From positions 1 through 34,617 of the forward strand of contig JAFWYQ010000070.1 in NCBI GenBank assembly GCA_017517605.1: 34,617 nt of DNA, read 5' to 3'. This DNA comes from Bacteroidaceae bacterium (GTDB lineage Bacteria; Bacteroidota; Bacteroidia; Bacteroidales; Bacteroidaceae). The notes under the pieces are model-generated. The model ran no database searches, was not told the origin of the DNA, and worked only from the letters and a program-made list of their open reading frames with translations. Both the position numbers and the translations under genes were made by a program. Of the stretch, positions 1,057 through 31,344 are shown piece after piece (within the stretch, counting starts at the first letter, position 1; every line of letters begins with the position of its first letter).

Positions 1057-1209
1057 GTAACTATTCAGCGATAATATAAACGCTCAATTTATTATTTAGG
1101 ACACAAAGACACGGAGACACAGAGATAATATATTTGTCACTACAAAAGGGAAAAACTCTGTGTTTCTGTGCTTCTGTGTTCTAAATAATTTGTTTCGCTG
1201 AATTGTTAC
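1057..1209. mobile_element. 153-bp MITE, copy 1 (IS66-like ends)
   Basis: The element begins GTAACTATTCAGCG and ends with the inverse CGCTGAATTGTTAC. The interior is a long imperfect palindrome whose arms contain repeated ACACAGAG-type motifs. It is flanked by an exact 8-bp direct repeat, ATCGTTGA, at 1049-1056 and 1210-1217. Ends starting with GTAA and an 8-bp duplication are hallmarks of the IS66 family, so this non-coding element is probably mobilised in trans by an IS66-type transposase. It carries no ORF of its own. It is nearly identical to the copy at 1550-1702. Confidence 0.85.
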
Positions 1210-1253
1210 ATCGTTGAAAGACAATGCAAAAATACGACACAAGGGAAGCCTCA

Positions 1254-1396
1254 TGCCACCGAGCCACCCTATATGCGGGAAAATATATATACGTGTGGGT
1301 GTGGGCGCGAGATTTTTTGGAAAATTAACAGTCTCGTCTCGCCCACACGCACACATATATAATCCTTTACGCGATATAGGGCGGCTCGGTGGCGCA
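1254..1396. repeat. 143-bp palindromic element (large imperfect inverted repeat)
   Basis: The left arm begins TGCCACCGAGCCACCCTATA and the right arm ends with its inverse (GGGCGGCTCGGTGGCGCA). The arms stay complementary for roughly 60 bases each with few gaps, through ACGTGTGGGTGTGGGCG-type sequence, around a short AT-rich centre near 1315-1332. It contains no ORF of credible length. It differs in sequence from the neighbouring 153-bp MITEs, and no clear target duplication is seen. It may be a second MITE family or a very large terminator-like hairpin immediately after the decayed gene that ends at 1404. Confidence 0.6.
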
Positions 1397-1403
1397 AGGG
1401 GCA

Positions 1404-1756
1404 TCATTCAAACTCCAACCTCAGTTTGTTAGCCAGTTCACACATCAGCTGTTCGCGCCTGTCGGATGGATAGTGGTCGATACAGAGAAGATGCCTGCTC
1501 CGTTCTTTATGGCTGTTGTCATAAGAGTCGGAAAGTTTGCCTATAAAAGGTAACTATTCAGCGATAATACAAACGCTCAATTTATTATTTAGGACACAAA
1601 GACACGGAGACACAGAGATAACATATTTGTCACTACAAAAGGGAAAAACTCTGTGTCTCTGTGCCTCTGTGTTCTAAATAATTTGTTTCGCTGAATTGTT
1701 ACTATAAAAGGGAAGATGGAGTGTATGTCGTCCCCATTGGCTGTTTTAAAGATTAG
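1404..1756 (-). pseudogene. Decayed gene remnant (C-terminal ~63 codons) split by a MITE
   Basis: Reading leftward, an open frame starts after a TGA (1757-1759), is interrupted by the MITE at 1550-1702, and ends at TGA 1404-1406. Removing the MITE plus one copy of its 8-bp target duplication (161 bp) leaves exactly 64 codons in one uninterrupted frame, with protein-like composition: ...GDDIHSIFPFIGKLSDSYDN, then KERSRHLLCIDHYPSDRREQ, ending in LANKLRLEFE. There is no start codon, so the N-terminus is lost. I do not recognise the family. The exact frame restoration supports a real coding ancestor that was broken by insertion. Confidence 0.5.
1550..1702. mobile_element. 153-bp MITE, copy 2 (IS66-like ends)
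   Basis: Same element as 1057-1209, in the same orientation, with only a few substitutions: GTAACTATTCAGCG at the left end and CGCTGAATTGTTAC at the right. It is flanked by a different exact 8-bp direct repeat, TATAAAAG, at 1542-1549 and 1703-1710. Two copies with independent target duplications within 500 bp show two separate transposition events rather than a segmental duplication. It interrupts the coding remnant at 1404-1756. Confidence 0.87.
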
Positions 1757-1847
1757 TCAACTTTTTCCTTTGAACCTTGACCATTCCTTTTTTTTACTCA
1801 ATTGCAACTGAAATTGAACTTTATCTGCAAAAAAACGACCTAAATTC

Positions 1848-1878
1848 TTTCGCAAACAACGGCTTTTGTGTAACTTTG
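1848..1878 (+). promoter_or_regulatory. purL promoter
   Basis: TAACTTTG at 1871-1878 matches the -7 consensus TAnnTTTG, and TTTC at 1848-1851 stands 19 bases upstream as a -33 element. Transcription should start near 1885, giving a leader of about 70 bases that contains a small GTGT/ACAC hairpin and an AGGAAA ribosome-binding stretch just before the ATG at 1958. No purine-type riboswitch was recognised in the leader. Confidence 0.65.
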
Positions 1879-1957
1879 TGCCCTAAGTTGGTGTAATGTG
1901 TGGAAACACGTTGGCCATACGGTGAGAAAATAGTAATAAATTATATAAAAGGAAAAG

Positions 1958-4900
1958 ATGATTTTATTTTTCAGAACATCCTCTAACAACGTGATTGCCA
2001 TTGAGATGAATCACGCTGCCAGTGTAGAGGAAATCCAAAAACTTTGTTGGCTGTTCGGTGATGCAACACCCGAATGCGAAGAGAATTTGACAGGTTGTTT
2101 CGTAGGCCCGCGTAAGGAGATGATTACCCCGTGGAGTACGAATGCAGTGGAAATTACCCAAAACATGGGATTGGAAGGTGTGGCCCGTATCGAGGAGTAC
2201 TTCCCCGTGGCTGATGAAAATGCCGACCGCGACCCGATGCTGCAACGCATGTACAAGGGATTGGGACAGGAGATTTTCAAAACCAACATCCAACCGCAAC
2301 CCATCGTACACATCACCGACCTGGAGGCTTACAACGAGCAGGAAGGACTGGCCTTGAGCGCCGAGGAGATGGAGTACCTGAAGAAGGTGGAGAAGGACCT
2401 TGGTCGTCCCTTAACCGATAGCGAAGTGTTCGGCTTTGCACAAATCAATTCAGAGCACTGCCGTCACAAGATTTTCGGTGGTACATTCATCATCGATGGC
2501 GAAGAGAAGGAGTCGAGCCTCTTCCAGATGATTAAGAAGACTACGCAGGAGAATCCCAACAAGATTATCTCTGCCTACAAGGATAATGTGGCCTTTGCCG
2601 CAGGTCCCGTCATCGAGCAATTTGCTCCGGCCGACCACTCGAAACCCGACTACTTCCAGGTGAAGGATATCGAGAGTGTGATTTCATTGAAAGCCGAAAC
2701 CCACAACTTCCCCACTACGGTAGAGCCGTTCAACGGTGCATCAACGGGTACAGGTGGTGAAATCCGTGACCGTATGGGTGGCGGTAAGGGTTCATGGCCC
2801 ATTGCCGGTACAGCTGTATATATGACCTCGTATCCCCGTAGCGAAGAGGGACGCGAGTGGGAAGAGATTCTGCCTGTACGCAAATGGCTCTATCAGACAC
2901 CCGAGCAGATATTGACCAAGGCTTCGAACGGTGCCAGCGATTTCGGTAACAAGTTCGGCCAACCGCTCATCTGCGGTTCGCTCCTCACCTTCGAGCATCA
3001 GGAGAATGGCGAACAGTATGCCTACGACAAGGTAATCATGTTGGCCGGTGGTGTGGGATATGGTACCAAGCGCGACTGCTTGAAAGGTGCTCCCCAACCC
3101 GGTAACAAAGTAGTGGTGATGGGTGGTGACAACTACCGCATCGGTCTTGGTGGCGGTTCGGTATCTTCTGTAGAAACAGGACGTTACTCGTCAGGTATCG
3201 AGTTGAATGCCGTACAGCGTGCCAATGCCGAGATGCAGAAGCGTGCCTACAACGTAGTCCGCGCCCTTTGCGAGGAGGACAACAACCCCATCGTATCCAT
3301 CCACGACCACGGTTCTGCCGGACACGTGAACTGCCTCAGCGAGTTGGTGGAGGAGTGTGGAGGACTTATCCACATGGACAAACTCCCCATTGGTGACCAG
3401 ACATTGAGTGCCAAGGAAATCATCGCCAACGAGAGCCAGGAGCGTATGGGATTGCTTATCGACGAATCGGCCATCGAGCATGTACGCCAGATTGCCGAGC
3501 GTGAACGTGCCCCGATGTACACGGTGGGTGAAACAACCGGCGACCAGCGCTTTGCCTTCGAACAGGCTGACGGCGTACGTCCGTTCGACTTGGCTGTTGA
3601 CCAGATGTTCGGTTCATCGCCCAAGACCTATATGGTTGACAAGACCGTAGAGCGCAAGTATGACGTAGTGACCTACGACATCACCAAGCTCGACGAATAT
3701 ATCCAGCGCGTACTCCAATTGGAGGCCGTGGCATGCAAGGACTGGTTGACCAACAAGGTTGACCGTTGTGTGACCGGCCGTGTGGCTCGTCAGCAGTGTC
3801 AGGGTGAATTGCAGTTGCCGCTCAGCGACTGTGGTGCCGTAGCCCTCGACTACCGTGGACGCAAGGGTATCGCCACCTCTATCGGACATGCTCCGCAAGC
3901 TGCTTTGGCTGACCCTGCTGCAGGTTCTGTCCTCTCTGTCAGCGAAGCGTTGACCAACCTCGTGTGGGCTCCGTTGGCCGAAGGACTCGACAGTGTATCC
4001 CTCTCAGCCAACTGGATGTGGCCTTGCCGTGCACAGGAGGGTGAGGATGCACGCCTCTACACCGCCGTGAAGGCATTGAGCGACTTCTGCTGCTCTTTGC
4101 AAATCAATGTGCCTACGGGTAAGGACTCACTCTCAATGACTCAGAAATATCCCGACGGAAGCAAGATTATCAGCCCGGGTACGGTAATCGTGTCTGCCGG
4201 TGGTGAGGTGAGCGACATCCGCAAGATTGTATCTCCTGTGATGAAGAACGAACCGAAGAGCCGTTTCTATCACATTGACTTCTCATTCGACACCCTGCAA
4301 TTGGGTGGCTCGGCTTTTGCACAAAGCATGGGCAAGGTAGGTAGCGATGTACCTACCGTGAAGAATCCCGAATACTTCCGCGATGCATTCCTCGCTATCC
4401 AACAATTGGTGAACGAAGGCCTTATCATGGCCGGACACGACATCTCTGCAGGTGGTCTCCTCACCTGTTTGCTGGAGATGTGCTTCGCCAATGTGGACGG
4501 AGGTATGGAGGTGAACCTCGACAAGTTACAGGGATGCGACATCGTGAAGGCCCACTTCGCTGAGAATCCGGGTGTAGTCATCCAGGTATCAGACAAGGAT
4601 GCTGCCCGCGTGAAGAAGATTCTGGACGATGCCGGTGTGGGTTACGTGAAGATTGCTGTACCTTCGGAAGAGCGTCACATCATGGTAAGCAAGGATGGCT
4701 ACGACTACCAGTTCGGTATCGACCACTTGCGCGATGTGTGGTACTCTACCTCATACCTGATGGATCGCAAGCAGAGCTTCAATGGCAAGGCCAAGGAGCG
4801 CTTTGAGAATTACAAGCAGCAACCGCTTGACCTCGCCTTCGGTCCCGAATTTACCGGTAAGTTGAAGCAATGGGGACTCGACCCTGACCGTCGTACTCCC

Positions 4901-5659
4901 TCAGGCATCAAGGCTGCCGTTATCCGCGAGAAGGGTACCAACTCTGAGCGCGAAATGGCATATAGCTTCTGGTTGGCTGGCTTCGACGTGAAGGACGTAA
5001 CCATGACCGACCTTATCAGCGGACGCGAGACTTTGGAGGACGTGAATGTCATCGCCTTCTGCGGTGGATTCTCCAACTCCGACGTGCTTGGTTCGGCCAA
5101 GGGATGGGCAGGAGCCTTCCTCTACAACCCGAAAGCCAAGGCTGCCCTCGACAACTTCTATGCCCGCGAAGATACCCTCTCGTTCGGTGTCTGCAACGGT
5201 TGCCAGCTGATGGTGGAATTGGGACTTATCAATCCTGAGCACCCTGCTGACAAGAAAGCCAAGATGCTCCACAACGACTCGCATAAATTCGAAAGTAACT
5301 TTGTATCGTTGACCATCCCGATGAACCGCAGTGTGATGTTCGGTTCGTTGAGCGGATACAAGATTGGTACTTGGGTGGCTCACGGTGAAGGAAAGTTCCA
5401 CTTGCCGCTCCCCGAAGAGGAGTACAACGTGGTGGCTAAGTTTACCTACGACGGTTATCCCGCCAATCCGAACGGTTCATCGTATGGTGTAGCAGCCATT
5501 GCCAGCAAGGATGGCCGCCACTTGGCCATCATGCCGCATCCCGAGCGTACCATCTTCCCATGGCAATGCGGATTCTACCCGCGTACGGCTGATGAGGTGA
5601 CTCCTTGGATTGAGGCATTTGTGAATGCCCGCAAGTGGGTGGAAGCAAACAGAAAGTGA
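1958..5659 (+). CDS. purL: Phosphoribosylformylglycinamidine synthase (FGAM synthase), single large polypeptide
   Basis: This cytoplasmic enzyme carries out the fourth step of de novo purine synthesis: FGAR + ATP + glutamine to FGAM. The 1233 residues match the large fused form (PurL/PurQ/PurS in one chain; the E. coli enzyme is about 1295). Visible landmarks are the N-terminal PurS-like domain, an ETHNFPT nucleotide-binding motif with a GTGGEIRDRMGGGKGSW loop in the first AIRS-like half, GHAPQAAL and a second AIRS-like half ending in TGKDSLSM and GHDISAGG, then a class I glutamine amidotransferase domain from about 1000. That domain keeps the catalytic Cys1079 in FGVCNGCQ and His1194/Glu1196 in PHPERT. 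The start is supported by an AGGAAA site and by the MILFFRT opening. It has its own promoter and appears monocistronic. No anomaly seen. Confidence 0.98.
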   Translation: MILFFRTSSNNVIAIEMNHAASVEEIQKLCWLFGDATPECEENLTGCFVGPRKEMITPWSTNAVEITQNMGLEGVARIEEYFPVADENADRDPMLQRMYKGLGQEIFKTNIQPQPIVHITDLEAYNEQEGLALSAEEMEYLKKVEKDLGRPLTDSEVFGFAQINSEHCRHKIFGGTFIIDGEEKESSLFQMIKKTTQENPNKIISAYKDNVAFAAGPVIEQFAPADHSKPDYFQVKDIESVISLKAETHNFPTTVEPFNGASTGTGGEIRDRMGGGKGSWPIAGTAVYMTSYPRSEEGREWEEILPVRKWLYQTPEQILTKASNGASDFGNKFGQPLICGSLLTFEHQENGEQYAYDKVIMLAGGVGYGTKRDCLKGAPQPGNKVVVMGGDNYRIGLGGGSVSSVETGRYSSGIELNAVQRANAEMQKRAYNVVRALCEEDNNPIVSIHDHGSAGHVNCLSELVEECGGLIHMDKLPIGDQTLSAKEIIANESQERMGLLIDESAIEHVRQIAERERAPMYTVGETTGDQRFAFEQADGVRPFDLAVDQMFGSSPKTYMVDKTVERKYDVVTYDITKLDEYIQRVLQLEAVACKDWLTNKVDRCVTGRVARQQCQGELQLPLSDCGAVALDYRGRKGIATSIGHAPQAALADPAAGSVLSVSEALTNLVWAPLAEGLDSVSLSANWMWPCRAQEGEDARLYTAVKALSDFCCSLQINVPTGKDSLSMTQKYPDGSKIISPGTVIVSAGGEVSDIRKIVSPVMKNEPKSRFYHIDFSFDTLQLGGSAFAQSMGKVGSDVPTVKNPEYFRDAFLAIQQLVNEGLIMAGHDISAGGLLTCLLEMCFANVDGGMEVNLDKLQGCDIVKAHFAENPGVVIQVSDKDAARVKKILDDAGVGYVKIAVPSEERHIMVSKDGYDYQFGIDHLRDVWYSTSYLMDRKQSFNGKAKERFENYKQQPLDLAFGPEFTGKLKQWGLDPDRRTPSGIKAAVIREKGTNSEREMAYSFWLAGFDVKDVTMTDLISGRETLEDVNVIAFCGGFSNSDVLGSAKGWAGAFLYNPKAKAALDNFYAREDTLSFGVCNGCQLMVELGLINPEHPADKKAKMLHNDSHKFESNFVSLTIPMNRSVMFGSLSGYKIGTWVAHGEGKFHLPLPEEEYNVVAKFTYDGYPANPNGSSYGVAAIASKDGRHLAIMPHPERTIFPWQCGFYPRTADEVTPWIEAFVNARKWVEANRK

Positions 5660-5724
5660 CTGGTGATTAGCTACTAGTTGCTACGGATGAGTTGATGGTA
5701 ATTTTTTTTTCGAAGATAATGAAC

Positions 5725-5764
5725 AATTACGGGCTACAGGTTGTTATATCTGTAGCTCGTAATT
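5725..5764. terminator. Hairpin after purL
   Basis: AATTACGGGCTACAG (5725-5739) pairs with CTGTAGCTCGTAATT (5750-5764) with a single G/T wobble and a ~10-base loop. It lies 66 bases after the purL stop and is the best terminator candidate, although no T-run follows on the plus strand. Confidence 0.5.
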
Positions 5765-5775
5765 AAAAATAATCA

Positions 5776-5810: not shown

Positions 5811-5833
5811 ATTTATACACACATGCAATCTAC

Positions 5834-8800
5834 ATGAGAAACGTCCTTGTCTGTATCGTCTTGTTCTTGACGATTTTTCAAACTTCCTTCGGACAGGCCT
5901 ACAAATATATAGGTGTGGCAGAAGGATTGAGTGATCGCCGCGTTTTGTCCATCCAAAAGGATAAGGCAGGATTCATGTGGTTTCTTACTTACGCAGGAAT
6001 TGACCGGTACGACGGGAAAAACATCAAACATTACCGCTTGCAATCTGATGAGGGATATATTTCCTTTTATTCTGAAAAAACGACACTAAAGACTGATACT
6101 TTGGGACGTATGTGGGCCATCGGCTCTGCAGGGGAATTGTTCAAGTATCACTATTCAAACGATAATTTTGAGCAGATGCAATTGCCGGAAAATGTTGTTT
6201 CGGTAAAGACCTTGAATCTGGTAAAGATGACGGAGTTCAACGAAGTCTGGTATTGCCATGATGACTCTTGTTTTATTTATAATCTGGATACCGGAGACAT
6301 TCAACAGATAGAGTTTGACCATCGGCATAAGCATGTTACAGCCCTTTATCAATCTGGCAAAGAGACCTATTATATCGGCTCTGATGACGGAATATGCCAA
6401 GTGACAATGCGGGATGGGAAAATGTACACCTCGCAATGTATAATTCCCAATGATGTGTGCACACTCCCTACAATAATATATGTTCATCCAACAACAAATC
6501 TGTTATTTGCAGGAAGTGAAATAACAGGATTGATGGTGTATGACTTGGCGGCAAGGGAGATGGTAAAATCCTATACATTCCTTAAAGACTTCCCCGTCAC
6601 AAGTTTTCAGCTGTATGGGGATAGTTTGATGCTTATTCCTACCCGCGGTGCAGGAGTACAGGAATACAATCTTCATAGCAGGAATTTGGAGTTGGGACTT
6701 TATTCCGATTTTCAAGAGGTAAATAAGATGAACGGAAATAATATCCGTGCCTTGTATGTCGATGCTCATCAACGCATCTGGATGTCGGTGTATGCTCGAG
6801 GTATCACTATATATGACCAGACATTGCCTGATTATAAGTGGTATAAAAATCATATAGGTAACACAAATTCGTTGAACGACGATCTGGTAAATGCTGTATT
6901 GGAGGATTCAGAGGGTGACATTTGGTTTGCCACCAACAACGGAATCAGCTTGTATCGTGTAGAAGATGACACTTGGGAACACCTGTTCCCATGGAACAAA
7001 GCGGAAGTGGAATCCATGAAGAACTCAATCTTTCTTTCGCTTTGCGAAACAAACCCTGGAGAAATAGTGACGGGGGGATTCATGACTGGAGTTTACCATA
7101 TTGACAAAACTACAATGAAAGCGCATTTGCAGACTCCTGAAACCTATATCCCCGACAAAGAAAACCCTACCCTTACGAATAAATACATACGGGTAATCTA
7201 TCGTGATAGTGAAGGGCTTGTTTGGACGGGAGGAAACAATTATTTGGGACGTACGAATAGTAAAACCCGAGAATTCAAGTATTACCAAATCAACAATCCG
7301 GCTACATGCATAGTAGAACAGAATTCCGATGTGTTGCTGATTGGTACAGGAGATGGTATATACCGATTGAATAAAAGGACAGATGAGGTGAAAAAAATGA
7401 GATTGCCATTTGCTTCGCAACAGATCAATTGTATGTATCTTCATCCTTGTGGAGACCTGTATATAGGGACTACCAATTCAGGCTTGGTAATATTACGGAC
7501 GGATGGTGAGTATGAAATTTATCTATACAATACAAGTGCCTTGCTGTCAAATACTGTCAATACGATTGTTCCCAAGAACGAACACGAAATCATTGTGGCT
7601 ACAGAACAGAATATTGCACTATATAATAATAGGAATAAGGAGTTTGTCAATTGGACGAAGGACCAGGGACTTATCGAGGCAAATTTTACTCCACGTGCAG
7701 GAATACATACTTCGCGTGGGACATTCATCTTTGGTTCTGACAATGGAGCCGTAGAATGGGTGGAGAATATGAAACTGCCACACCATAAGAAAACTGAAAT
7801 TCTATTTGACCAAATTTTGGTGGGAGGCGAACATGTGCCGCAAAATGTTCTCAGTCAGGTGAATGCACATGATTCCGAAAATCTCAACCAACTGAACCTG
7901 CAAGAGGGGAACCATGCTATATCCATTCATATTTCAACAATCGATTACAACAGTCCGCAATATACTTTTTTCAGATGGAGGTTGATGGGAAAATATGATT
8001 ATTGGAATAGAATTGAAAAAGAGAATTGGCTGAATTTCCATAACCTGAAACCCAGGGAATACTTGTTGCATGTTCAGAATGTGTCCAAGGAAGATGAACG
8101 TGTTTTTGGCGAAAAGATGTTGAAAATCATCGTAAATCCTCCTTTGTGGCTTTCAAAAGGGGCAATATTGACTTATTTGATAAGTTTCTTTTGTATTTTG
8201 GCTCTGATATTTCGTTACATCCTGTTCAAGAGAGAACAGAAGGTTGCCGCCGAGAAAGACCGCTTCTTGATTGATACTGTTCATGGAATACGCACCCCTC
8301 TGATGTTGGCAAAAAGTGCCATGGATGAGGTGATGAAACAACAGGAACTTCCGACTCAATCGTATAATTATTTGCAGATGGCTAACTATAGTGTTGAGAA
8401 ATTATGCATCATGGCCATGAATCTGTTGAACATCGAAAAGATACGGAAAAGCAAGAAAGTGTATGTTGAATATTGCGATGTGAACAATCTTGTTCAGAAG
8501 TTTGTCAAACCTTTTTTTTCAATTATTGAGCATGATCACATTCGTGTTCAGTTCATGTCACCGAAGGATGAAAAGATAATGGCATGGATTGATATTTCCA
8601 AAATTGAGCTTATCTTTTATAATTTGATATCGAACCTTATTCGTCAGACTCCGCCTGATAACGTGATATATTTGTCCGTATATAAGGATAAAATGCGGTG
8701 GGGCATAAATGTGGCTAACAGCCACGAATTGCTCTCGGCTCCTTTGGGTGTATCTCCTAAAGGGCTTAATCGGATGAACAGGGGAGAGATGGATGCAGAA

Positions 8801-9823
8801 TTGCATCTTATAAGCCGGTTGGTAAAGCGTCATCATGGCACGATGCATTACAAGGTTATGCCACCTGCGAGCTATTTGTTCAATGTTTCCTTCCCTGTGA
8901 CACATTTTTATTATATCAAGCAGAATCGTCGCAATGATTCGTTGTGTGATGAGAATGAATCCTTCTCATCGTTGCCTGCGTATCCCGAACTGATGTCCTT
9001 GAAGGAGTTGGCATCTGTGGAGAAGTTGGGGTACATCCTGTTGATAGATGAACATACGGAAGCGTTGGATTTCTTCCATAATTCGTTGGGTAAGGAGTGG
9101 CGTATTTCAACGGCTCGGAGTGCTGAGGTTGCGTTGGAACTTGTCGTGGAGCACGAACCGGATATTATTATCGCGTCGTCGAATGCCATACAATTGGAGC
9201 ATGGTGATTTATGTACGATTTTGAAGTCTAATGTAAATACCAGCCACATACCCATTATTTTGATAACGTCAGATGATGATAGGGATACGGTTCAGGAATG
9301 TTTCTCTCAACGGGCTGATCACTATGTGGCAAAGCCCTATGACCTGTTTGTGATAAAATCTATCCTTTACAATATACTCGAAAATCGTCAACAACTGCAT
9401 GACAGACTTACCAAAGTCGATCAGGTGCATAATCTGAAGGAGATAAAGCAGGCCAATATCGAGCAGGAAACCAAGTTCCTCACTACGGTGAAAGAGGTTA
9501 TTCGTGCCCATGTAGACAATCCCGATTTCGGTGTGGATGAATTGTGTGCACAGATGGGAATGAGCCGAACCAACTTATATAATAAGATAAAGTCGCTTAC
9601 CAACTCGTCACTAAGTACTCTGATACGTGATGCCCGTATGCAACGTGCTTGCGAAATGTTGTTATCTGACAAGTACAATATAACAGAGGTATGCGACCGC
9701 TTGGGTTTCAATGAGTTGAAATATTTCAGAGAAGTGTTCAAGAAGTATTATGGAGTTACTCCCAGCGAATACATCAAGGTACACAGTAACAAGGTTGAAA
9801 AGGATGTGGATAAAGAGGAATGA
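5834..9823 (+). CDS. Hybrid two-component system regulator (HTCS), with degenerate kinase and receiver active sites
   Basis: The 1329 residues have the full HTCS architecture. A signal peptide (1-21) precedes a periplasmic Reg_prop two-bladed-propeller sensor (about 22-690), a Y_Y_Y domain (about 700-770) and a membrane segment (about 776-797). Then come a HisKA helix with His817, an HATPase-like region, a receiver (about 1070-1190) and an intact AraC-type HTH (about 1212-1313). Such proteins normally sense a glycan fragment and activate a polysaccharide-utilisation locus. The catalytic motifs are unusual. The H-box is HGIRTP, without the acidic residue after His. The N-box Asn (930) is kept, but the DxGxG motif reads NSHEL (962-966), and the GTGIGL motif reads EMDAEL (985-990), with all three glycines gone. 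The receiver has Ser1115 where the phospho-accepting Asp should be. No frameshift is present. It probably works without phosphotransfer, or is decaying. No PUL is adjacent. Confidence 0.93.
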   Translation: MRNVLVCIVLFLTIFQTSFGQAYKYIGVAEGLSDRRVLSIQKDKAGFMWFLTYAGIDRYDGKNIKHYRLQSDEGYISFYSEKTTLKTDTLGRMWAIGSAGELFKYHYSNDNFEQMQLPENVVSVKTLNLVKMTEFNEVWYCHDDSCFIYNLDTGDIQQIEFDHRHKHVTALYQSGKETYYIGSDDGICQVTMRDGKMYTSQCIIPNDVCTLPTIIYVHPTTNLLFAGSEITGLMVYDLAAREMVKSYTFLKDFPVTSFQLYGDSLMLIPTRGAGVQEYNLHSRNLELGLYSDFQEVNKMNGNNIRALYVDAHQRIWMSVYARGITIYDQTLPDYKWYKNHIGNTNSLNDDLVNAVLEDSEGDIWFATNNGISLYRVEDDTWEHLFPWNKAEVESMKNSIFLSLCETNPGEIVTGGFMTGVYHIDKTTMKAHLQTPETYIPDKENPTLTNKYIRVIYRDSEGLVWTGGNNYLGRTNSKTREFKYYQINNPATCIVEQNSDVLLIGTGDGIYRLNKRTDEVKKMRLPFASQQINCMYLHPCGDLYIGTTNSGLVILRTDGEYEIYLYNTSALLSNTVNTIVPKNEHEIIVATEQNIALYNNRNKEFVNWTKDQGLIEANFTPRAGIHTSRGTFIFGSDNGAVEWVENMKLPHHKKTEILFDQILVGGEHVPQNVLSQVNAHDSENLNQLNLQEGNHAISIHISTIDYNSPQYTFFRWRLMGKYDYWNRIEKENWLNFHNLKPREYLLHVQNVSKEDERVFGEKMLKIIVNPPLWLSKGAILTYLISFFCILALIFRYILFKREQKVAAEKDRFLIDTVHGIRTPLMLAKSAMDEVMKQQELPTQSYNYLQMANYSVEKLCIMAMNLLNIEKIRKSKKVYVEYCDVNNLVQKFVKPFFSIIEHDHIRVQFMSPKDEKIMAWIDISKIELIFYNLISNLIRQTPPDNVIYLSVYKDKMRWGINVANSHELLSAPLGVSPKGLNRMNRGEMDAELHLISRLVKRHHGTMHYKVMPPASYLFNVSFPVTHFYYIKQNRRNDSLCDENESFSSLPAYPELMSLKELASVEKLGYILLIDEHTEALDFFHNSLGKEWRISTARSAEVALELVVEHEPDIIIASSNAIQLEHGDLCTILKSNVNTSHIPIILITSDDDRDTVQECFSQRADHYVAKPYDLFVIKSILYNILENRQQLHDRLTKVDQVHNLKEIKQANIEQETKFLTTVKEVIRAHVDNPDFGVDELCAQMGMSRTNLYNKIKSLTNSSLSTLIRDARMQRACEMLLSDKYNITEVCDRLGFNELKYFREVFKKYYGVTPSEYIKVHSNKVEKDVDKEE

Positions 9824-9900
9824 GAAGGTTTCTTGAGTAGGTAAGTGTAAGCCTACAGTATGGAAATCAATGCGTGGAGTATGAAAGTGTAGAAATTGAA

Positions 9901-9934
9901 TCCTTTTCTCTATTTTCGAAAATAGAGAAAAGGA
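9901..9934. terminator. 34-bp perfect palindrome between convergent genes
   Basis: The left half starts TCCTTTTCTCTATTTTC and the right half (from 9918) is its exact complement, with no mismatch and no central loop. It lies 78 bases after the HTCS stop in the gap between convergent genes and would form a strong hairpin in either transcript. A T-run (TTTTTT) follows a few bases later on the plus strand, which fits a terminator for the HTCS gene. Confidence 0.55.
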
Positions 9935-9956
9935 GACATAGCGTTTTTTCCTAATG

Positions 9957-10040
9957 TTTCAATTGACACGTTGACGAGTTGACAAGGTAAGGGAGCATGT
10001 CGTACAAATCCTTGTCAACTCGTCAACTTTTCAACTGAAA
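9957..10040. terminator. 84-nt long-stem hairpin before the phosphatase stop
   Basis: GTTGACGAGTTGACAAGG (9970-9987) pairs perfectly with its inverse at 10010-10027, and the stem continues outward as TTTCAATTGA (9957-9966) against TCAACTGAAA (10031-10040). The arms contain two partial GTTGACGA-type units. It ends 8 bases from the minus-strand phosphatase stop codon, so it probably terminates that transcript; it also resembles dispersed intergenic repeats of Bacteroidales genomes. Confidence 0.55.
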
Positions 10041-10047
10041 ATATAAA

Positions 10048-19200: not shown

Positions 19201-19993
19201 CAATAGGAGTTATCAAGCGTGCTTTTCCTCCCACCCATTCACCGTTTGTGCTCATGCAGACTGTGGTGACGGTACTTCCTGTAGAGAAGAATTCGCTGGT
19301 TCCTATGATCTCTGCTTTCTGTTCGGCTACGTAATATACATACTGCTGGATGTCAGAAGGATAAATGTACATCAATCCTCCGATAAGGATATTTCCGTCA
19401 GCAGAAATGTCCATCAAACGGCTTAGTTCGTAACCGTCTCTACCTGCTGGTATATTGGGGAGTTCAACCAATTCTCCGTTTTTCCACATGACGGGGTATT
19501 CTTTGTAACCACCGTCAAAATTTTGGCTGTTATTGGTGACGGTACCGACCATGCACGAACCGTCGGGGGTAGTGGCAATGATGTGTCCACGTGCATTGCT
19601 GATGTACGATGGCGTGGGCAAATATTCCCAAGTGACCGAACCATTATCTCCAATGCGGCAAATGGCAGGTTTTCCTTGGTGGGCACCGACAACAATTTTT
19701 CCATCATCCGTAATGTCGTTTGCACAACAATCCGGTGACGATAGTTTTTCAGCTTCGCTCAGGAGTGAGATTGAGGTGCCCTTTGTGATGTCCAGCAAAT
19801 AAGGGTAATTGTACAGTGTGGCATCATTGGCATCCACATTGCTGGCTACAGCCCATAATCCGTTATCGGATAACTTGTTGATGTAAGTTGTTTCGGAAAA
19901 AGCAAAAGCTTGTAAACGGGCTTTACCGGTTGTCTGTGCAGTGATTGTCAGTGTGCAAATAACTTGTAATGTAAAAATGAATATTCTTCTCAT
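16214..19993 (-). CDS. Large secreted multidomain protein with Omp28/thioredoxin-like module and T9SS-like C-terminal tail
   Basis: A 1259-residue exported protein. The start at 19993 gives signal peptide MRRIFIFTLQVICTLTITAQ; a further 23 codons upstream would overlap the promoter box. Residues about 25-400 contain HAF/propeller-like repeats (DISADGNILIGG, TPDGSCMVGT). Two Ig-like units of ~100 residues follow, each with KVPAGT/KIPAGA, then a carbohydrate-binding/MAM-like module around FADDFTDPS...ALFVDDIEVVY. Next is an Omp28-type thioredoxin-like domain with GTWCSNCPDG (Cys930/Cys933). The last ~80 residues resemble a type A T9SS sorting domain (ALYTSEGWLLDE, GIAIVHI, final LLVK). It is probably delivered to the surface. 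The same Omp28 family occurs in the divergent operon (22365-23159), linking the two. Substrate unknown; roles in adhesion or disulfide handling are inference. Confidence 0.85.
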   Translation of the reverse strand: MRRIFIFTLQVICTLTITAQTTGKARLQAFAFSETTYINKLSDNGLWAVASNVDANDATLYNYPYLLDITKGTSISLLSEAEKLSSPDCCANDITDDGKIVVGAHQGKPAICRIGDNGSVTWEYLPTPSYISNARGHIIATTPDGSCMVGTVTNNSQNFDGGYKEYPVMWKNGELVELPNIPAGRDGYELSRLMDISADGNILIGGLMYIYPSDIQQYVYYVAEQKAEIIGTSEFFSTGSTVTTVCMSTNGEWVGGKARLITPIEGSQFPDEQEIPYRYNTRTKEFTAYTTSEHHEAATTAIFNNGLMAVASPIGNPYRTQMYFIDGYYYNLELILSERYGIDFMSASGIDNSGLAISTSADGKTIACFSVNEGNYVVTLPETIEEAAKGVNLLARSTVSPAAGSSFSYFRSIAVTFDKAPTVVSGKQAALYKEGSDTPVRTSANIAPANDLPTCTTFNINFRNTPLEDGVKYTVKVPAGTFRLGNTDTYNRDIEVTYVGRSEKPVKVVGVNLEDGTEVASLSYNIPVAMQFDTEIALTEGSKGSLYQEGISTPISDLTLATSANMLAAYPGTKRNLFKGINYIVKIPAGAVTDITGSCANEEITYTYVGAYVPEPPADTLLFADDFTDPSTSYNNFMLYEGDHLTPNSTAQAWQFDADNTPWYFGIRESEDSYDYCAGSVSMYNPAGKSDDWMVTTQIYLPNEYCYLDFNVQSYLSSKKDSLRIYIYTDDAVYTAINKDFIDRVKAEGVCIHAELATPGGNQEYLSGDWMHYRIPLGQFAEKNIYIAFANECTNQSALFVDDIEVVYKSNCLLALNSKTTVVNQSETTVSGVVKITDETNTYNEIKVFFRNEEGTVSDTLHTTNISLKKGDIFEFSFNKKMPLAIGEENTLTMGVILGEDTKTTDFIIKNLAFETTKRVVIEEVTGTWCSNCPDGMVAIEHMQEALPGQIIPVCIHNQDIYANDDYMTALGLTALPTARVNRRDTITSPIVINTDTYEYSFTSVSGNESWMDHVLKELETEADANITLSKAEFDRKTGNLTVSTDVTYAISKAGVTANLFFVLLEDGLMGVQTNGRANMTDPIYGDWGKNGKYGGQASVQIAYHDVARAILAESQSTISGYSGLIPATVKSGQAINNNITIEGALTALANPLNGKVVCMLLDANTGRVINADVCNLTDADPYSIDEMAETHVSVTTQQGNIIVTATKARIALYTSEGWLLDETYVCGSATLNTNGYQGIAIVHILCDGQAEVRKLLVK

Positions 19994-20031
19994 ATTTATG
20001 CTTTTCTTAGTTTTTGATGTTAAAACGTCGG

Positions 20032-20039
20032 CAAATGTA
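20032..20039 (-). promoter_or_regulatory. Promoter box of the large Omp28/CTD gene
   Basis: Minus-strand TACATTTG matches TAnnTTTG and predicts a start near 20025, 32 bases upstream of the ATG at 19993. No standard -33 element is seen. It lies back to back with the operon promoter at 20114. Confidence 0.5.
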
Positions 20040-20113
20040 GGCGATTTTGACAAAAGGAGCAACGAATTGCGCTTTTTTAACTTAAAACCGATTAATTATT
20101 CAGTCTTTATACC

Positions 20114-20121
20114 TATTTTTG
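20114..20121 (+). promoter_or_regulatory. Promoter box of the nine-gene operon
   Basis: TATTTTTG matches TAnnTTTG, with an expected start near 20128. That places the in-frame ATGs at 20130 and 20139 almost at the transcript end and favours the ATG at 20151 as the start of the first gene. No further TAnnTTTG box was found in the short gaps downstream, so this is the likely promoter for 20151-33075. Confidence 0.5.
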
Positions 20122-20150
20122 CATCCGAAATGAAAAATATGCTAAGAACT

Positions 20151-20642
20151 ATGAAGAAATTTTTGTGTTTGGTAGTATTTGCCTTGTTGGGTACAGCCTT
20201 GTATGCCCAACTCCCTTCTGTGAAGTTGAAGACATTGGAAGGAAAGACTATTGATACGGCCAAATTGAGTAACGATGGTAAACCTTTTATCATCAGTTTT
20301 TTTGCCACATGGTGCAAACCTTGTAACCGCGAATTGAATGCCATTCACGAGAATTATGTTGATTGGCAGGATGAGACAGGCGTAAAAGTGATTGCCGTAT
20401 CAATTGATCAGGCTCATCAGGTGAACAAAGTGAAACCGTTGGTCGACGGTAATGGTTGGGAGTATGATGTGTTGCTTGACCCGAACAGCGATTTCAAGCG
20501 TGCATTGGGTGTAAACATGATTCCGCACGTATTCATCATCGATGGCAATGGCAAGATTGTTGACCAACGAAGCGGATACACCGAAGGTGCTGAAGAGCAT
20601 TTGATTGAGAAGGTGCGCGAAATCTTGGCCGAAAAGAAATAA
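20151..20642 (+). CDS. TlpA-like thioredoxin-fold protein, exported
   Basis: A 163-residue TlpA/ResA-type disulfide oxidoreductase. The signal peptide MKKFLCLVVFALLGTALYAQ directs it to the periplasm. The thioredoxin fold shows FFATWCKPCNREL with catalytic Cys55 and Cys58, the SIDQAHQVNKVKPLV segment, and the cis-proline loop in NMIPHVFIIDGNGKIV. In this family it reduces or shuffles disulfides in exported proteins. It is the first gene of the plus-strand operon, 42 bases before the DUF6029 gene, with two CxxC-bearing Omp28 proteins nearby (22365 and the divergent 19993 gene), which are plausible clients. Start codons at 20130 and 20139 are possible but poorly placed relative to the promoter. 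Confidence 0.92.
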   Translation: MKKFLCLVVFALLGTALYAQLPSVKLKTLEGKTIDTAKLSNDGKPFIISFFATWCKPCNRELNAIHENYVDWQDETGVKVIAVSIDQAHQVNKVKPLVDGNGWEYDVLLDPNSDFKRALGVNMIPHVFIIDGNGKIVDQRSGYTEGAEEHLIEKVREILAEKK

Positions 20643-20684
20643 CTGAACCGCTTGGTTTTAAAAAGGAGTAAAGAATATTAGAGA

Positions 20685-22358
20685 ATGTTGAAATTAACAC
20701 GAATGGTTGCCATATTCGGTATGGCAACAATGTCTGTCGGCCTTGCCGCACAGGAAGGTGTCACTTTGAATGGTAGCATTCAGAGTGACATTTTGTTGCC
20801 TCAAGAGGACGATGCAATTGGTACAAAATACGATAGCAATTCCGATCTTCTGACCAATACGTATGCTGACCTTCACCTGCGTAGCAAATGGGTGGATGCC
20901 GGTGCGCGTTTGGAATTTATGGAATATCCTCTTCCGGGTTTTGAACGGGATTTTGAAGGATGGGGAGTTCCTCATATTTATGTAAAAGGTAAGTTGGGTA
21001 ATGGCTTCGAAGTGACCCTTGGCGATTTTTACGACCAATTCGGAAGCGGCTTAATTTTCCGTGCTTACGAAGAGCGTAGCTTGGGTATTGACAACTCTAT
21101 CCGTGGCCTTCGCTTGAATGTATCAGCCATCGATGGACTTAATGTGAAACTGTTGGGAGGCCTTCAACGCCGTTATTGGAATTGGGATGACGAAGCCATC
21201 GTTGCCGGTGCTGATGCAGAGTTGAATATCGACCGCTTCAGTACCCAGATGCAGGACAAAGGCATCAACTGGATGGTGGGTGCATCGTTTGTGGGTAAGA
21301 AGGAGGATGATGAGAATATCATGCTCAATCCTGTTCAGCGCTTGAACCTGCCTGAAGTGGTAACAGCCTTTGATGTACGCACCCGTTATCAGCAAGGCAA
21401 CTATAGCTTGATGGCCGAGTATGCCATGAAGAGTCAGGACCCTTCGTTTGACAATGGGTATATTTATAAGAAAGGTAATGCTTTGATGCTCTCCGGTTCG
21501 TATTCAAAACGTGGTATGAGTGCTTTGGTACAAGCCAAGCGTAGCGAAGATATGTCCTTCCGTAGCCGCCGCTCGGTGAATGGTACCAGTGCCTTTCTTA
21601 ATCACATGCCGGCATTTGCTTATCAGCATACCTACGCATTGGCGGCCCTTTATCCCTACGCTACACAGATGGCAAACGGAGAGTGGGCGATGCAAGGCGA
21701 GTTTGGCTATACCTTCAAACGCAAGACTCTGTTGGGTGGCAAGTATGGCACATCGCTCAAGTTGAATATGAGCTATATCCGTGCTATCGACCGTAAGCCT
21801 GTGACTGATGGTAAACTGATGGGTACGGATGGCTATACCTCTTCTTTCTTCAAGTTCGGAGACGAGACCTACTACCAGGATATTAATCTCCAGTTGGAGA
21901 AAAAAATCTCCAGTGCCTTCAAGCTGAATTTGATGTACATGAATCAACGTTACAACCAGGGAGTGATTGAGGGACATGGAGGAATGATTAATTCCGACAT
22001 CTTTGTGGGTGAAGGAAAATATCAGTTCAACAAGAAACTGACCCTTCGTGGTGAATTGCAATACTTGACCACTTCACACGAGAGTGGCGATTGGATGTAT
22101 GGTTTGCTCGAACTCTCCGTTCTTCCATATTTGATGTTCACCGTTAGCGATATGTATGGAAAGCCTGCTATCAATGGCGGTCTTGAATACGGAGACAAGG
22201 AGCATTACTACATGGCTTCGGTGACATTCAACTACAATGCCCACCGTATCATGGCTGGATATGGCCGCACACGTGCCGGATACAACTGCTCGGGTGGTGT
22301 GTGCCGTTATGTCCCAGCCAGCAAGGGTGTGAATATTTCTTATAACTATAGCTTTTAA
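20685..22358 (+). CDS. DUF6029 family outer-membrane beta-barrel protein
   Basis: A 557-residue protein with signal peptide MLKLTRMVAIFGMATMSVGL(AAQ), preceded by an AAAAGGAG ribosome-binding site. The mature part is built of alternating-residue amphipathic strands with aromatic girdles and ends in VNISYNYSF, a C-terminal aromatic typical of outer-membrane barrels. GDFYDQFGSGLIFRAYEERS and the overall pattern match DUF6029, a Bacteroidetes family without known function that in my knowledge is often encoded beside TlpA and Omp28 genes. A role as barrel partner, pore or assembly platform for the Omp28 lipoprotein is inference. The next gene starts 6 bases after its stop, showing tight coupling. 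Confidence 0.85.
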   Translation: MLKLTRMVAIFGMATMSVGLAAQEGVTLNGSIQSDILLPQEDDAIGTKYDSNSDLLTNTYADLHLRSKWVDAGARLEFMEYPLPGFERDFEGWGVPHIYVKGKLGNGFEVTLGDFYDQFGSGLIFRAYEERSLGIDNSIRGLRLNVSAIDGLNVKLLGGLQRRYWNWDDEAIVAGADAELNIDRFSTQMQDKGINWMVGASFVGKKEDDENIMLNPVQRLNLPEVVTAFDVRTRYQQGNYSLMAEYAMKSQDPSFDNGYIYKKGNALMLSGSYSKRGMSALVQAKRSEDMSFRSRRSVNGTSAFLNHMPAFAYQHTYALAALYPYATQMANGEWAMQGEFGYTFKRKTLLGGKYGTSLKLNMSYIRAIDRKPVTDGKLMGTDGYTSSFFKFGDETYYQDINLQLEKKISSAFKLNLMYMNQRYNQGVIEGHGGMINSDIFVGEGKYQFNKKLTLRGELQYLTTSHESGDWMYGLLELSVLPYLMFTVSDMYGKPAINGGLEYGDKEHYYMASVTFNYNAHRIMAGYGRTRAGYNCSGGVCRYVPASKGVNISYNYSF

Positions 22359-22364
22359 TCGAAG

Positions 22365-23159
22365 ATGAAGAAACACTATATATATATAATAGGTATAGCA
22401 GCAGCTCTTTTTACAGCTTGTGAGAATATTTCGGAAGACGAACGTTTCTTGGAGGTTGAGGGTGTAACAGCCCAACGCGTAGTGCTGTTGGAGGATTATA
22501 CGGGACAAGGATGTTTGAATTGCCCTAATGCACATGATGTTGCTACACAATTGCATGAAGCTTATCATGATAATCTAATTGTTGTGAGTATGCATGCCGG
22601 AATGTTGGCTTATCCTTATCCTGATGGATTAAAACAACCCGAAGGAGATGCGTATGCAACGGCTGTAGGAGTTGAATTCTATCCTTCGGGAATGGTTAAT
22701 CGACGTGGTGGATTGTTAGATAATTATTTATCTTGGAGTGGAGCCGTTTATAACGAATTGCAACGTGAATCGCAGGTTCAATTGGCAGTAAATGCTAATC
22801 TTTCATCTGATTCAATTTTATCAGTTAATGTTGATATGATAGCTTTGGCTGCTATATCAGGAAAACTTCAATTATGGATTGTTGAAGATAGCATTATTGC
22901 TATGCAGAAATTGCCGACAGGTAAGTATGACCCCAAATATGTTCACAACCATGTCTTCCGTGGCGCCATCAATGGCACATGGGGCGAGGATATATCCTTG
23001 ACTTTGGGAGAAGAGAAGACAAAGTGTCATAATGACTTTGAATTGAATGCAGCATGGAAACCTGAGAATCTTTCTGTAGTTGCGTTTGTGTATAACGACA
23101 ATGATGGAGTATTGCAAGCTGCTCAATGTAACGTAAATCTTGGAAATATTGATGAATAA
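22365..23159 (+). CDS. Omp28-related outer-membrane lipoprotein with CxxC
   Basis: A 264-residue lipoprotein: MKKHYIYIIGIAAALFTAC places the lipidated cysteine at 19, followed by acidic residues (ENISEDE), which fits surface export of lipoproteins in Bacteroidetes. The domain is Omp28-like (thioredoxin-related), with YTGQGCLNCPNAHD giving Cys50 and Cys53, the cis-Pro-like VEFYPSGMVNRRGG, and the KYVHNHVFRGAINGTWGE motif. Omp28 was named from a Porphyromonas gingivalis outer-membrane protein; adhesion and redox roles have been suggested. It sits between the DUF6029 barrel and a small T9SS-tail protein. Part of the coding region (about 22560-22920) is clearly more AT-rich than the sequence after it. 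Confidence 0.88.
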   Translation: MKKHYIYIIGIAAALFTACENISEDERFLEVEGVTAQRVVLLEDYTGQGCLNCPNAHDVATQLHEAYHDNLIVVSMHAGMLAYPYPDGLKQPEGDAYATAVGVEFYPSGMVNRRGGLLDNYLSWSGAVYNELQRESQVQLAVNANLSSDSILSVNVDMIALAAISGKLQLWIVEDSIIAMQKLPTGKYDPKYVHNHVFRGAINGTWGEDISLTLGEEKTKCHNDFELNAAWKPENLSVVAFVYNDNDGVLQAAQCNVNLGNIDE

Positions 23160-23174
23160 ATAATAAATTAAAAT

Positions 23175-23879
23175 ATGAAGAAAATTTCTACTTTTTTTAT
23201 TGCTGCGATGTGCAATATGGCGAGTCTTGCTCAAGGCTTAGCTTTTCAATTGTCAGATGGTACAGTTCTTGAAAATGGAACGGAATTAACCGTGGCGGGG
23301 CACGATGATGCTGAAGCTATGGAACTCCATTCAGGCTTGTGCGTGAAGAATTTGACATCAAAACAAACAGGACTTTATGTGAAAACAAAAGCAATTAGTG
23401 GTTCTATTCAAGTATGTTTTGGAGGAACTTGTGTGCCTTTATTTGAAGGAATGGAATCTGAAAAGATGGGAGTTTTGCCCGCAAATGAAGTGGTAGATTT
23501 GTTGATAGGCGCACCTACCTTTATGGTTTCGGGTTATATAACTCGCAAAATAGAGGTTACTGCCTGGTTGGCAAATGCTGTTGATGAGAAAGTGACAATT
23601 ACGCTTACTTTCACCAACGACCCTGCTCTTTCTGTTGAAGAGGTGAAGGCAACTCCTGCTAAGGTGTATGCCAAGGACAACGTCCTCTATTGCCAGTTTG
23701 CTGATGCAGCAAACCGCCAGTTGCAAGTGTACAATGTAGCTGGTAATCTTTGCAAGGACATCCGTTTGACAAGCGAATCAGAGAGCCTGCCGTTGGAAGG
23801 TATGGCCAAGGGCGTTTACATTTATCGTGTAATGGAAGCCAGCAAGAAGGCTGAGAGCGGAAAGTTCTTGGTGAAGTAA
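23175..23879 (+). CDS. Small secreted protein with T9SS-like C-terminal sorting domain
   Basis: 234 residues. A signal peptide (MKKISTFFIAAMCNMASLAQ) precedes a beta-rich body without a recognised family (it contains CFGGTCVPLFEGMES). From about residue 160 comes a type A T9SS-like tail: a VYAKDNVLYCQF strand, LQVYNVAGNLCKDI, GMAKGVYIYRV and final GKFLVK. Proteins with this tail are exported across the outer membrane and anchored, or function as secreted partners. It is located 15 bases after the Omp28 lipoprotein gene in the same operon. The first ~400 bp are AT-rich, while the tail region (from about 23600) is GC-richer, suggesting that the body and tail have different histories. Function unknown. 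Confidence 0.75.
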   Translation: MKKISTFFIAAMCNMASLAQGLAFQLSDGTVLENGTELTVAGHDDAEAMELHSGLCVKNLTSKQTGLYVKTKAISGSIQVCFGGTCVPLFEGMESEKMGVLPANEVVDLLIGAPTFMVSGYITRKIEVTAWLANAVDEKVTITLTFTNDPALSVEEVKATPAKVYAKDNVLYCQFADAANRQLQVYNVAGNLCKDIRLTSESESLPLEGMAKGVYIYRVMEASKKAESGKFLVK

Positions 23880-23924
23880 AGTAAGGAATCAGAACTAAAA
23901 ACAGATCGAATAAAAACTATAGAG

Positions 23925-26900: not shown

Positions 26901-27248
26901 CCCGGTGATGAGCGCAAGACCAATGTGCCTGTAATCGCTTCATCGCGTCAGGTGTCTACCATTGCCGGTTTGGAATATGGATACACTGCCTATAACTATT
27001 CAGATGTACGCGTGGCTGACGGCGGATTTATCCGTTTGAAGGAAGTGGCATTGTCTTACAACTTCACTCAGCCTTGGGTGAAGGAGATTGGCTTGAACAA
27101 CTTGACTTGCCGTATGACAGCATCTAACCTCTGGTTGGTTTACAGCGATTCAAAGTTGAACGGTCAGGATCCCGAGTTCGTTCAGTCAGGTGGTGTGGCT
27201 ATGCCTACCCCCAAGCAGATTACTTTCAAGATTAGTACAAATTTCTAA
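23925..27248 (+). CDS. SusC/RagA family TonB-dependent outer-membrane transporter
   Basis: A 1107-residue outer-membrane importer. The signal peptide ends near LGALAQ. A carboxypeptidase-D-like regulatory domain (about 23-105, SGTVISGEDNFPIIGAAV...) is followed by the TonB-box/plug entry EDVVVTGFQKIDRKMFTGA, the plug with LQGRVAGVTV and LYGARARNGVIVITTKRGK, and then a 22-strand barrel ending in KQITFKISTNF. No N-terminal STN domain is present, so it is not of the anti-sigma-sensing type. It starts 45 bases after the previous gene with no promoter box between, and forms the standard pair with the SusD gene 21 bases downstream. Neighbouring peptidase genes point to peptides or protein fragments as cargo, like RagAB of P. 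gingivalis, but that is inference. Confidence 0.97.
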   Translation: MRKQIFLWVLSLLMPLGALAQTTASGTVISGEDNFPIIGAAVQCKEVPTVGTATDMDGNFALEVPAGVTKLVISYTGMKSQEVTPATGLNIVLQPDVEVIEDVVVTGFQKIDRKMFTGAAQKVTAEEAKIDGVADISHALQGRVAGVTVQSVSGTFGVAPKMRVRASASLYGNTQSLYVVDGVILEDVQEMSADDLSSGDASTMLSSRIAGISAEDIEDFQVLMDANAVGLYGARARNGVIVITTKRGKKGQSSMSYSGEFTYRLRPSYSQYDIMNSQDQMSVYQEMKQKGFLYHADMSSGRVQNGGSYFLMNDMIYKGLLANTPQAIAGYERYLEQVNTDWFEELFEQNVQQYHSLSITGGSDKGGYRASLSYRGDPGWTKGNSLDLYTASFNSTYELSKNLKFTMLSNASYRNQMGPGTEDRNLNVVTGEYERDFDINPYSYAVSTSRTMSPYDENGNYQYYRQYYAPFNILSELENNIMEMEQFDIKLQGELEWKPIPELTLTGLLAYSANVFETEHKIYDNSNYANAYRAADDATMAGSNKFLYKDPENPDALPEVVMKDGGFYNTKRNTMNSIYMRATANYDKIIGENFRINPMVGIDVKRTDRTANMFNGYAFSWSGGNSPMLDWRMMQDLLVKGAEYYDYAEGYDRQVGMFTTVGMSFMDRYTLSLIGRYDGSNRMGRTDNSRWLPTWSVSAKWNILDEAWMKNCDAFSSLALRGSYGLTADLGPINNSYVIYYYNNTWRPLTNPNKSDEEPSLYINQLANDDLTWEKQYELNIGFDMGFLNERISTSTNFYTRKTFDMIAQTQNSGVGGQAWKWGNVGKGKAWGVETTITTQNIVKRDFNWSTHFTFSYSKDEVTELDAIYNAVGMCMPEGVPLEGNAFHGLYSYRFAGLSEEGFPMVYNENGIATSTDINFQDRNGQAYLKYEGSIDPSVTGGLRNSFRWKNWSADVFFSYQFGNKIRLNSEFASSYSDMKAMSKSFNNRWMVPGDERKTNVPVIASSRQVSTIAGLEYGYTAYNYSDVRVADGGFIRLKEVALSYNFTQPWVKEIGLNNLTCRMTASNLWLVYSDSKLNGQDPEFVQSGGVAMPTPKQITFKISTNF

Positions 27249-27269
27249 TATAATTCACAGTAGAATACA

Positions 27270-28916: not shown

Positions 28917-28925
28917 TGTAGAAGT

Positions 28926-29885: not shown

Positions 29886-29886
29886 T

Positions 29887-31311: not shown

Positions 31312-31344
31312 TCACTATTAACAGAAAAAGAACGAGTATTGTTT

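Follow-up and report, generated by a model that had tools for sequence, protein, structure and literature searches.

Much of the glycan response in gut Bacteroides is governed by hybrid two-component systems (HTCSs), a major class of regulators whose published descriptions present them as phosphorelays. The subject of this study is an HTCS-derived gene in a stretch of 34,617 nucleotides (the window), which comprises positions 1 to 34,617 of contig JAFWYQ010000070.1 from a Bacteroidaceae bacterium (assembly GCA_017517605.1). The gene lies at 5834..9823 on the forward strand, where an open frame with an ATG start encodes 1329 amino acids and for which orthologues were found. Its product is a real, maintained pseudo-HTCS.

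Bacteroides HTCSs such as BT4124 and BT4663 resemble the protein in the order of their domains, the type of sensor, the lock motif and an AraC output (PMC11253607, PMC3878776), but in the present protein the kinase and receiver chemistry is gone, and its neighbours are purL and, ancestrally, chromate transporter (CHR) genes rather than a polysaccharide utilisation locus (PUL). The lock is the S/CHIP motif of the HTCS receiver, which keeps the DNA-binding domain (DBD) inactive; when this motif is altered, BT4124 binds DNA without phosphate (PMC11253607). A phosphorylation-independent mode has been suggested for BT4236, an HTCS with glutamine in place of the phospho-histidine (PMC11253607). Compared by description, that case involves one reported residue, whereas here many species have lost the chemistry of kinase and receiver alike.

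Dead two-component domains that are kept for signalling are also described for DivL, ShkA and aspartate-less receiver (ALR) domains (PMC12632262, PMC4395418, PMC4211667), but here both dead halves sit in one chain with a sensor and a DBD. A pseudo-histidine kinase is defined as a kinase fold without one or more kinase functions, and a pseudo-receiver as a receiver without one of five conserved residues (PMC12632262). The starch-use regulator SusR similarly combines a periplasmic sensor, a membrane crossing and a cytoplasmic DBD, with no kinase in its description (PMC3878776). Unlike SusR, the present protein is derived from an HTCS and keeps the dead folds, and the likeness is one of working only, by description. 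Single parts of the idea (BT4236, pseudo-receivers and pseudo-kinases) are already in print. Among the open-licence PubMed Central (PMC) papers that the literature searches listed, most of them seen as listings, no description of a pseudo-HTCS clade or of an HTCS-chromate transporter link was recognised; nor did these searches bring up selection on dead domains, the stages of loss or a linkage with purL and CHR.

HTCS architecture without catalytic motifs

Three Pfam families score above their cut-offs in the protein: Reg_prop (75.6 bits, cut-off 20.4), Response_reg (40.4 bits, cut-off 30.2) and HTH_18 (69.6 bits, cut-off 33.6). HisKA gives no match anywhere in the 1329 residues, and HATPase_c reaches 13.8 bits, below its cut-off of 26.4. 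A signal region and the periplasmic Reg_prop sensor (PF07494) occupy residues 1-775 (5834..8158; this and all following domains are on the forward strand), followed by a hydrophobic stretch, read by eye from the translation and taken as the membrane segment, at about residues 776-797 (8159..8224). Next comes a DHp-like helical hairpin (residues 803-880, 8240..8473), which appears as helices in the structure model, and then a CA-like domain without G1, G2 or F-box/lid (residues 881-1045, 8474..8968), delimited from the alignment, the model and matches to kinase folds. The pseudo-receiver (PF00072; residues 1064-1182, 9023..9379) carries the sequence SHIP at residues 1137-1140 (9242..9253), which aligns with the receiver-DBD lock motif defined for HTCSs (PMC11253607). 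The AraC-type DBD (PF12833) extends over residues 1222-1318 (9497..9787).

Residues were compared with those of a canonical relative (L047 of genome G001). The H-box keeps H817, R820 and P822 and has G818 in place of aspartate or glutamate, while the N-box keeps N930. In the G1 box, NSHEL replaces DxGxG, with N962 for the aspartate and H964 and L966 for the glycines; in the G2 box, EMDAEL replaces GxGIGL, with D987 and E989 in place of its two glycines. The F-box/lid is a gap in the alignment. In the receiver, S1115 stands for the phospho-aspartate, T1145 and K1167 are kept, and the acidic pair is D1072/E1073 where most have E/D. These positions are otherwise nearly invariant. Among 106 further aligned HTCSs, counting paralogues, the histidine, the asparagine, the receiver aspartate, the lysine and both G2 glycines are each present in 106, and the G1 aspartate in 105.

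A first-pass annotation of this DNA had correctly described the open frame, the intact sensor and AraC domain, and the altered motifs, although the missing F-box/lid was not in its list. Its statement that His817 and Asn930 alone among the phosphotransfer sites are unaltered holds for the main losses and is too broad for Thr1145, Lys1167, the acidic pair, Arg820 and Pro822, which are kept. It had also reported HG for HE in the H-box; G818 is indeed there, but the usual form is HD (88 D and 18 E of the 106).

Features shared with HTCSs are the periplasmic Reg_prop sensor, the AraC DBD and descent, the protein being nested among canonical HTCSs in trees. Those that fail are the active kinase core (HisKA, and HATPase_c with its G boxes), the receiver phospho-aspartate and a linked PUL, the last being a common HTCS trait and not a strictly defining one. 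The protein is not filed as a functional HTCS because two defining features fail despite its HTCS descent. With S1115 at the aspartate position, the receiver falls within the published definition of a pseudo-receiver, or aspartate-less receiver (PMC12632262). A kinase fold that is backed by the model, combined with the loss of the catalytic motifs, points to a putative pseudo-histidine kinase.

A clade of degenerate orthologues

A search of 15 genomes of the genus recovered degenerate relatives in G012 (72% identity), G005 (two copies, 52% and 49%), G006 (48%), G007 (41%) and G013 (36%). An eighth clade member, from G004, is in the same dead state and is split across two contigs. The clade comprises eight proteins from seven genomes of one genus, and all frames are open, with that of G004 broken by contig ends. 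Its support is 1.0 in FastTree trees of the whole protein and of the sensor only, and its SH-like approximate likelihood ratio (SH-aLRT) is 100 in IQ-TREE on sensor and DBD columns. Canonical copies fall outside it, in G001 and G010 within the genus and in Bacteroides, Phocaeicola and Mediterranea beyond; the collection of relatives left out 24 places at 25-28% identity. Clade members from named genomes belong to 'Bacteroidaceae bacterium' metagenome-assembled genomes (MAGs) of water buffalo, sheep, goat and roe deer.

All eight checked residues are present in 71 of 80 loci (the best 80 of 224, from named genomes). Of the nine exceptions, six come from the dead clade, two are truncated (L178 and L173, the latter being the fragment from G004), and L148 has one glycine changed. 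Within the clade, the histidine is retained in 4/8 members, the G1 aspartate in 0/8 and the receiver aspartate in 1/8 (G004). The residues found at the lost catalytic positions vary among species, and the idea that a new conserved site has taken over the dead centre was rejected, as the letters differ between clade members. As read from the alignment, what the clade shares is the loss itself and not the residues that took its place, and no new site is apparent; the conservation of substitutions that the first-pass annotation had proposed to look for is found in the loss and not in its letters.

The G005 MAG holds two purL-HTCS-CHR blocks (L042 and L038), by duplication or in a mixed bin. The two purL genes are 92.6% identical in DNA, so that one of the G005 copies may belong to another species binned into the same MAG. 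Elsewhere, a pair of proteins from another genus (g9; genomes G022 and G073) is also degenerate. A single origin of this pair and the clade was rejected (approximately unbiased (AU) test, p = 0.024, constrained log-likelihood 37.7 lower), in a test that used a quick tree and a constrained group chosen after the degenerate state was known.

Selection and fold retention

Codon models of five clade members gave omega (dN/dS) values of 0.090 for the sensor, 0.075 for DHp, 0.086 for CA, 0.043 for the receiver (REC) and 0.038 for the DBD. The corresponding values for five canonical g13 proteins are 0.073, 0.022, 0.084, 0.026 and 0.025. With omega set to 1 and kappa fixed at 3.0, the fit for these five members drops by 52 to 709 log units depending on the domain, and by 26 to 709 over all clade sets. 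Purifying selection acts in every domain, including the dead kinase (omega 0.08-0.11), and the dN/dS estimate that had been suggested as a check comes out far below 1 throughout.

Constraint is nonetheless uneven across the protein. Tree lengths of the protein, taken per domain on one fixed topology of 89 rows, give clade-to-rest ratios of 0.152 for the sensor and 0.189 for the DBD, against 0.747 for DHp, 0.471 for CA and 0.453 for REC. Relative to canonical copies, the rate of evolution in the relay domains exceeds that of the sensor and DBD by a factor of 2.4 to 4.9. Columns that are hydrophobic in canonical proteins are still hydrophobic across the eight clade members in 140/160 DHp, 282/313 CA, 290/336 REC and 222/224 DBD cells, a level reached in 0 of 1000 shuffles. 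Conserved polar columns are retained in 26/55, 49/133, 90/152 and 96/104 cells, respectively. The structure model matches many kinase folds, RetS and DivL among them, with residues 973-985 (model residues 177-189) below pLDDT 50. Taken at the level of sequence, the pattern is one of folds that are maintained and chemistry that is lost.

Proposed signalling without phosphate and its alternatives

With a probability of roughly 0.7, the protein is a maintained pseudo-HTCS in the full sense, that is, a membrane-spanning AraC regulator that descends from a hybrid two-component ancestor and has abandoned the use of phosphate. The first-pass annotation had arrived at a pseudo-HTCS, and the degenerate clade and omega far below 1 support it, while phosphate-free signalling is what we infer. 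From the pattern of loss and retention, a change of shape rather than phosphorylation probably carries the signal along the protein, whose mode of action is most likely that of a one-component regulator in the membrane. A periplasmic ligand would alter the sensor, and the membrane helix and then the DHp hairpin of a dimer would relay the resulting movement. This would shift the receiver, whose S/CHIP lock would otherwise clamp the AraC domain, and the DBDs would thereby be released or would pair anew. In this scheme, the dead CA would act as a scaffold and the dead receiver as the lock, which is retained and opened by motion passed down the dimer. In the clade, the S of the lock motif is found in 6/8 members, the H in 7/8 and the P in 8/8. 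Position 1235, possibly the partner of this motif, is glutamate in G013 and aspartate in the other members. Judging by linkage, the ancestral target may have been the gene's own operon with the CHR pair.

Several observations weigh against this interpretation. Thr1145, Lys1167 and the acidic pair are still present in the receiver, as are H817 and N930 in the kinase, and G013 is without the S and H of the lock motif. Counted dS is saturated in several domains, which makes the omega values rough. The CA omega is not above the canonical value (0.086 vs 0.084), and relaxation in CA rests on the tree lengths because omega shows no rise there. The DHp tree length is itself inflated by G013, and DHp distance exceeds sensor distance in three of the ten canonical pairs listed (0.70 vs 0.29 in g54, 0.78 vs 0.59 and 2.24 vs 1.93). 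The structure model has a pTM of 0.48 and draws on an alignment in which 41 of 51 rows are canonical.

Slow decay, in which function is being lost, kinase first, on the way to a pseudogene, would account for catalytic letters that drift differently in each species and for the missing CHR neighbour at the locus here and in G012. It is nevertheless very unlikely, as all eight clade members have open frames, that of G004 interrupted where its contigs end, despite identities of 36-72%, with omega of 0.04-0.11 across all domains and 96/104 conserved polar cells kept in the DBD. The first-pass annotation had pointed to canonical motifs in close relatives, with scattered disabling mutations here, as the mark of simple decay; the nearest orthologues are instead open, degenerate and in one clade. 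Decay confined to one genome was rejected, being at odds with the existence of the clade, with its open frames and with omega. Residual phosphate signalling, through H817 or through a receiver served by another donor, is the least probable alternative of all: H817, N930, Thr1145 and Lys1167 are retained here and G004 retains its receiver aspartate, but across the clade the histidine survives in half of the members, the G1 aspartate in none and the receiver aspartate in that one.

The protein could also be a signal-blind constitutive DNA binder or repressor with the sensor as a passenger, since HTCSs with an altered lock have been suggested to bind unphosphorylated and repress (PMC11253607). 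The incomplete lock of G013 agrees with this idea, yet the sensor evolves at a normal relative rate by its tree-length ratio and the lock histidine is retained in seven of eight members, which makes it improbable. A role as a partner protein, which would pair with an active HTCS or another kinase and tune it in the manner of a pseudokinase, is about equally improbable. The dimerising DHp fold is retained, a canonical HTCS (on contig C53) is present in the same genome, and RetS and DivL, which are precedents for partner regulation, are among the many kinase-fold matches. Against such a role, the full DBD is conserved, and DHp is the fastest domain of the clade, unlike what is expected of a specific partner interface.

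A second HTCS, without kinase domains, and stages of loss

The same genome encodes a second HTCS on contig C29 (about 1157-4519, L054), of 1124 amino acids, without DHp and CA. Its order is sensor, Y_Y_Y, hydrophobic segment, short linker, aspartate-less receiver and AraC domain. HTCSs of this type, 1120-1124 amino acids long, occur in 9 of the 15 genomes of the genus; none has an internal stop, and one copy is cut at an edge; the receiver aspartate is retained only in the G001 copy and is lost in eight genomes. Among the best 30 places, whose loci were examined, canonical relatives of this family are also present, together with shortened forms. In L245, L248, L250 and L252 (g2 and g6), CA is deleted, DHp is a stub without the histidine and the receiver lacks the aspartate. 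L235, from Phocaeicola vulgatus ATCC 8482, and L236, from a relative of it, have a deleted receiver and a kinase without a normal G2 box, and in L233 and L234 (two g13 genomes) both kinase and receiver are deleted. The regions around L235 and L233 (L257 and L258) have nine flanking gene families in common, which places the long form and its shortened counterpart at a single locus. No PUL genes were found among the checked neighbours of these eight shortened loci.

The stage in which all domains are kept but dead is represented by the main clade and, separately, by the g9 pair. The sequences suggest that the kinase was lost first, because the G001 copy of the C29 family and the G004 member of the clade retain the receiver aspartate. 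Some branches of the second tree are weakly supported (0.70). We lean slightly towards the view that Bacteroidaceae HTCSs repeatedly become phosphate-free membrane regulators, with stages of the path surviving from dead-but-complete to kinase- or receiver-deleted forms. If this is true, an HTCS would be a conformational signalling rod, in which phosphorylation is an optional switch. The clade of folds without chemistry and the kinase-less form make it testable whether the binding of a ligand outside the membrane can act on the AraC domain in the absence of phosphate, and what part the folds of kinase and receiver play once their chemistry is gone. The receiver-less HTCS of P. vulgatus ATCC 8482 offers a natural variant in a cultured species.

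Genomic neighbourhood

The direct neighbours of the gene are purL upstream (1958..5659, forward strand, assigned by Pfam and locus comparison) and an alkaline phosphatase gene downstream on the opposite strand. The earlier description of a locus with no adjacent PUL holds for these neighbours, but a gene for a 1107-aa CarbopepD_reg protein and, behind it, a SusD-like gene lie at 23925-28916, about 14 kb downstream; the SusD-like gene, the nearest of its kind, is about 17 kb away. Both genes belong to a same-strand run at 19941-33075, which encodes a redoxin, DUF6029, Omp28, a Por_Secre_tail protein, the CarbopepD_reg and SusD-like proteins, Peptidase_Mx1, DUF4302 and one product without a Pfam match.

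The old neighbours of the subfamily are purL and a pair of half-size CHR (PF02417) genes, not a PUL, and this linkage marks an HTCS subfamily with non-PUL neighbours. Among 27 non-degenerate subfamily loci (L014, L015, L017, L019, L059 and L061-L082, each with about 1.5 kb of flank on both sides), CHR is downstream in 18 and purL upstream in 20. The order purL-HTCS-CHR-CHR is conserved across Bacteroidaceae (L014, L063-L070, L072-L078 and others), and in the loci listed the CHR pair begins no more than about 100 bases from the HTCS stop or overlaps it. In the dead clade, purL is present in 8/8 and CHR in 6/8. By locus comparison, the pair is missing here, where its site corresponds to 9824..10047, and in G012, which has a CHR pair elsewhere in its genome; in this genome, which is 80.5% complete, PF02417 gave no match. 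In G007, both CHR halves are fused into one protein of 411 amino acids (L045, 5863-7098).

By eye, and without a motif program, no direct repeat worth claiming as a cis operator was seen in ten upstream stretches, of which those of G006 and G007 were anchored too far upstream. A four-codon frame, ATGCAATCTACATGA, lies at 5815-5835 of the window, and its stop overlaps the HTCS ATG. It also occurs in the DNA of G012 and of both G005 copies and is consistent with the G006 translation; translational coupling to the HTCS is possible. An inverted repeat 3' of purL (window 5710-5770), seen by eye in several relatives as well, is read as the purL terminator.

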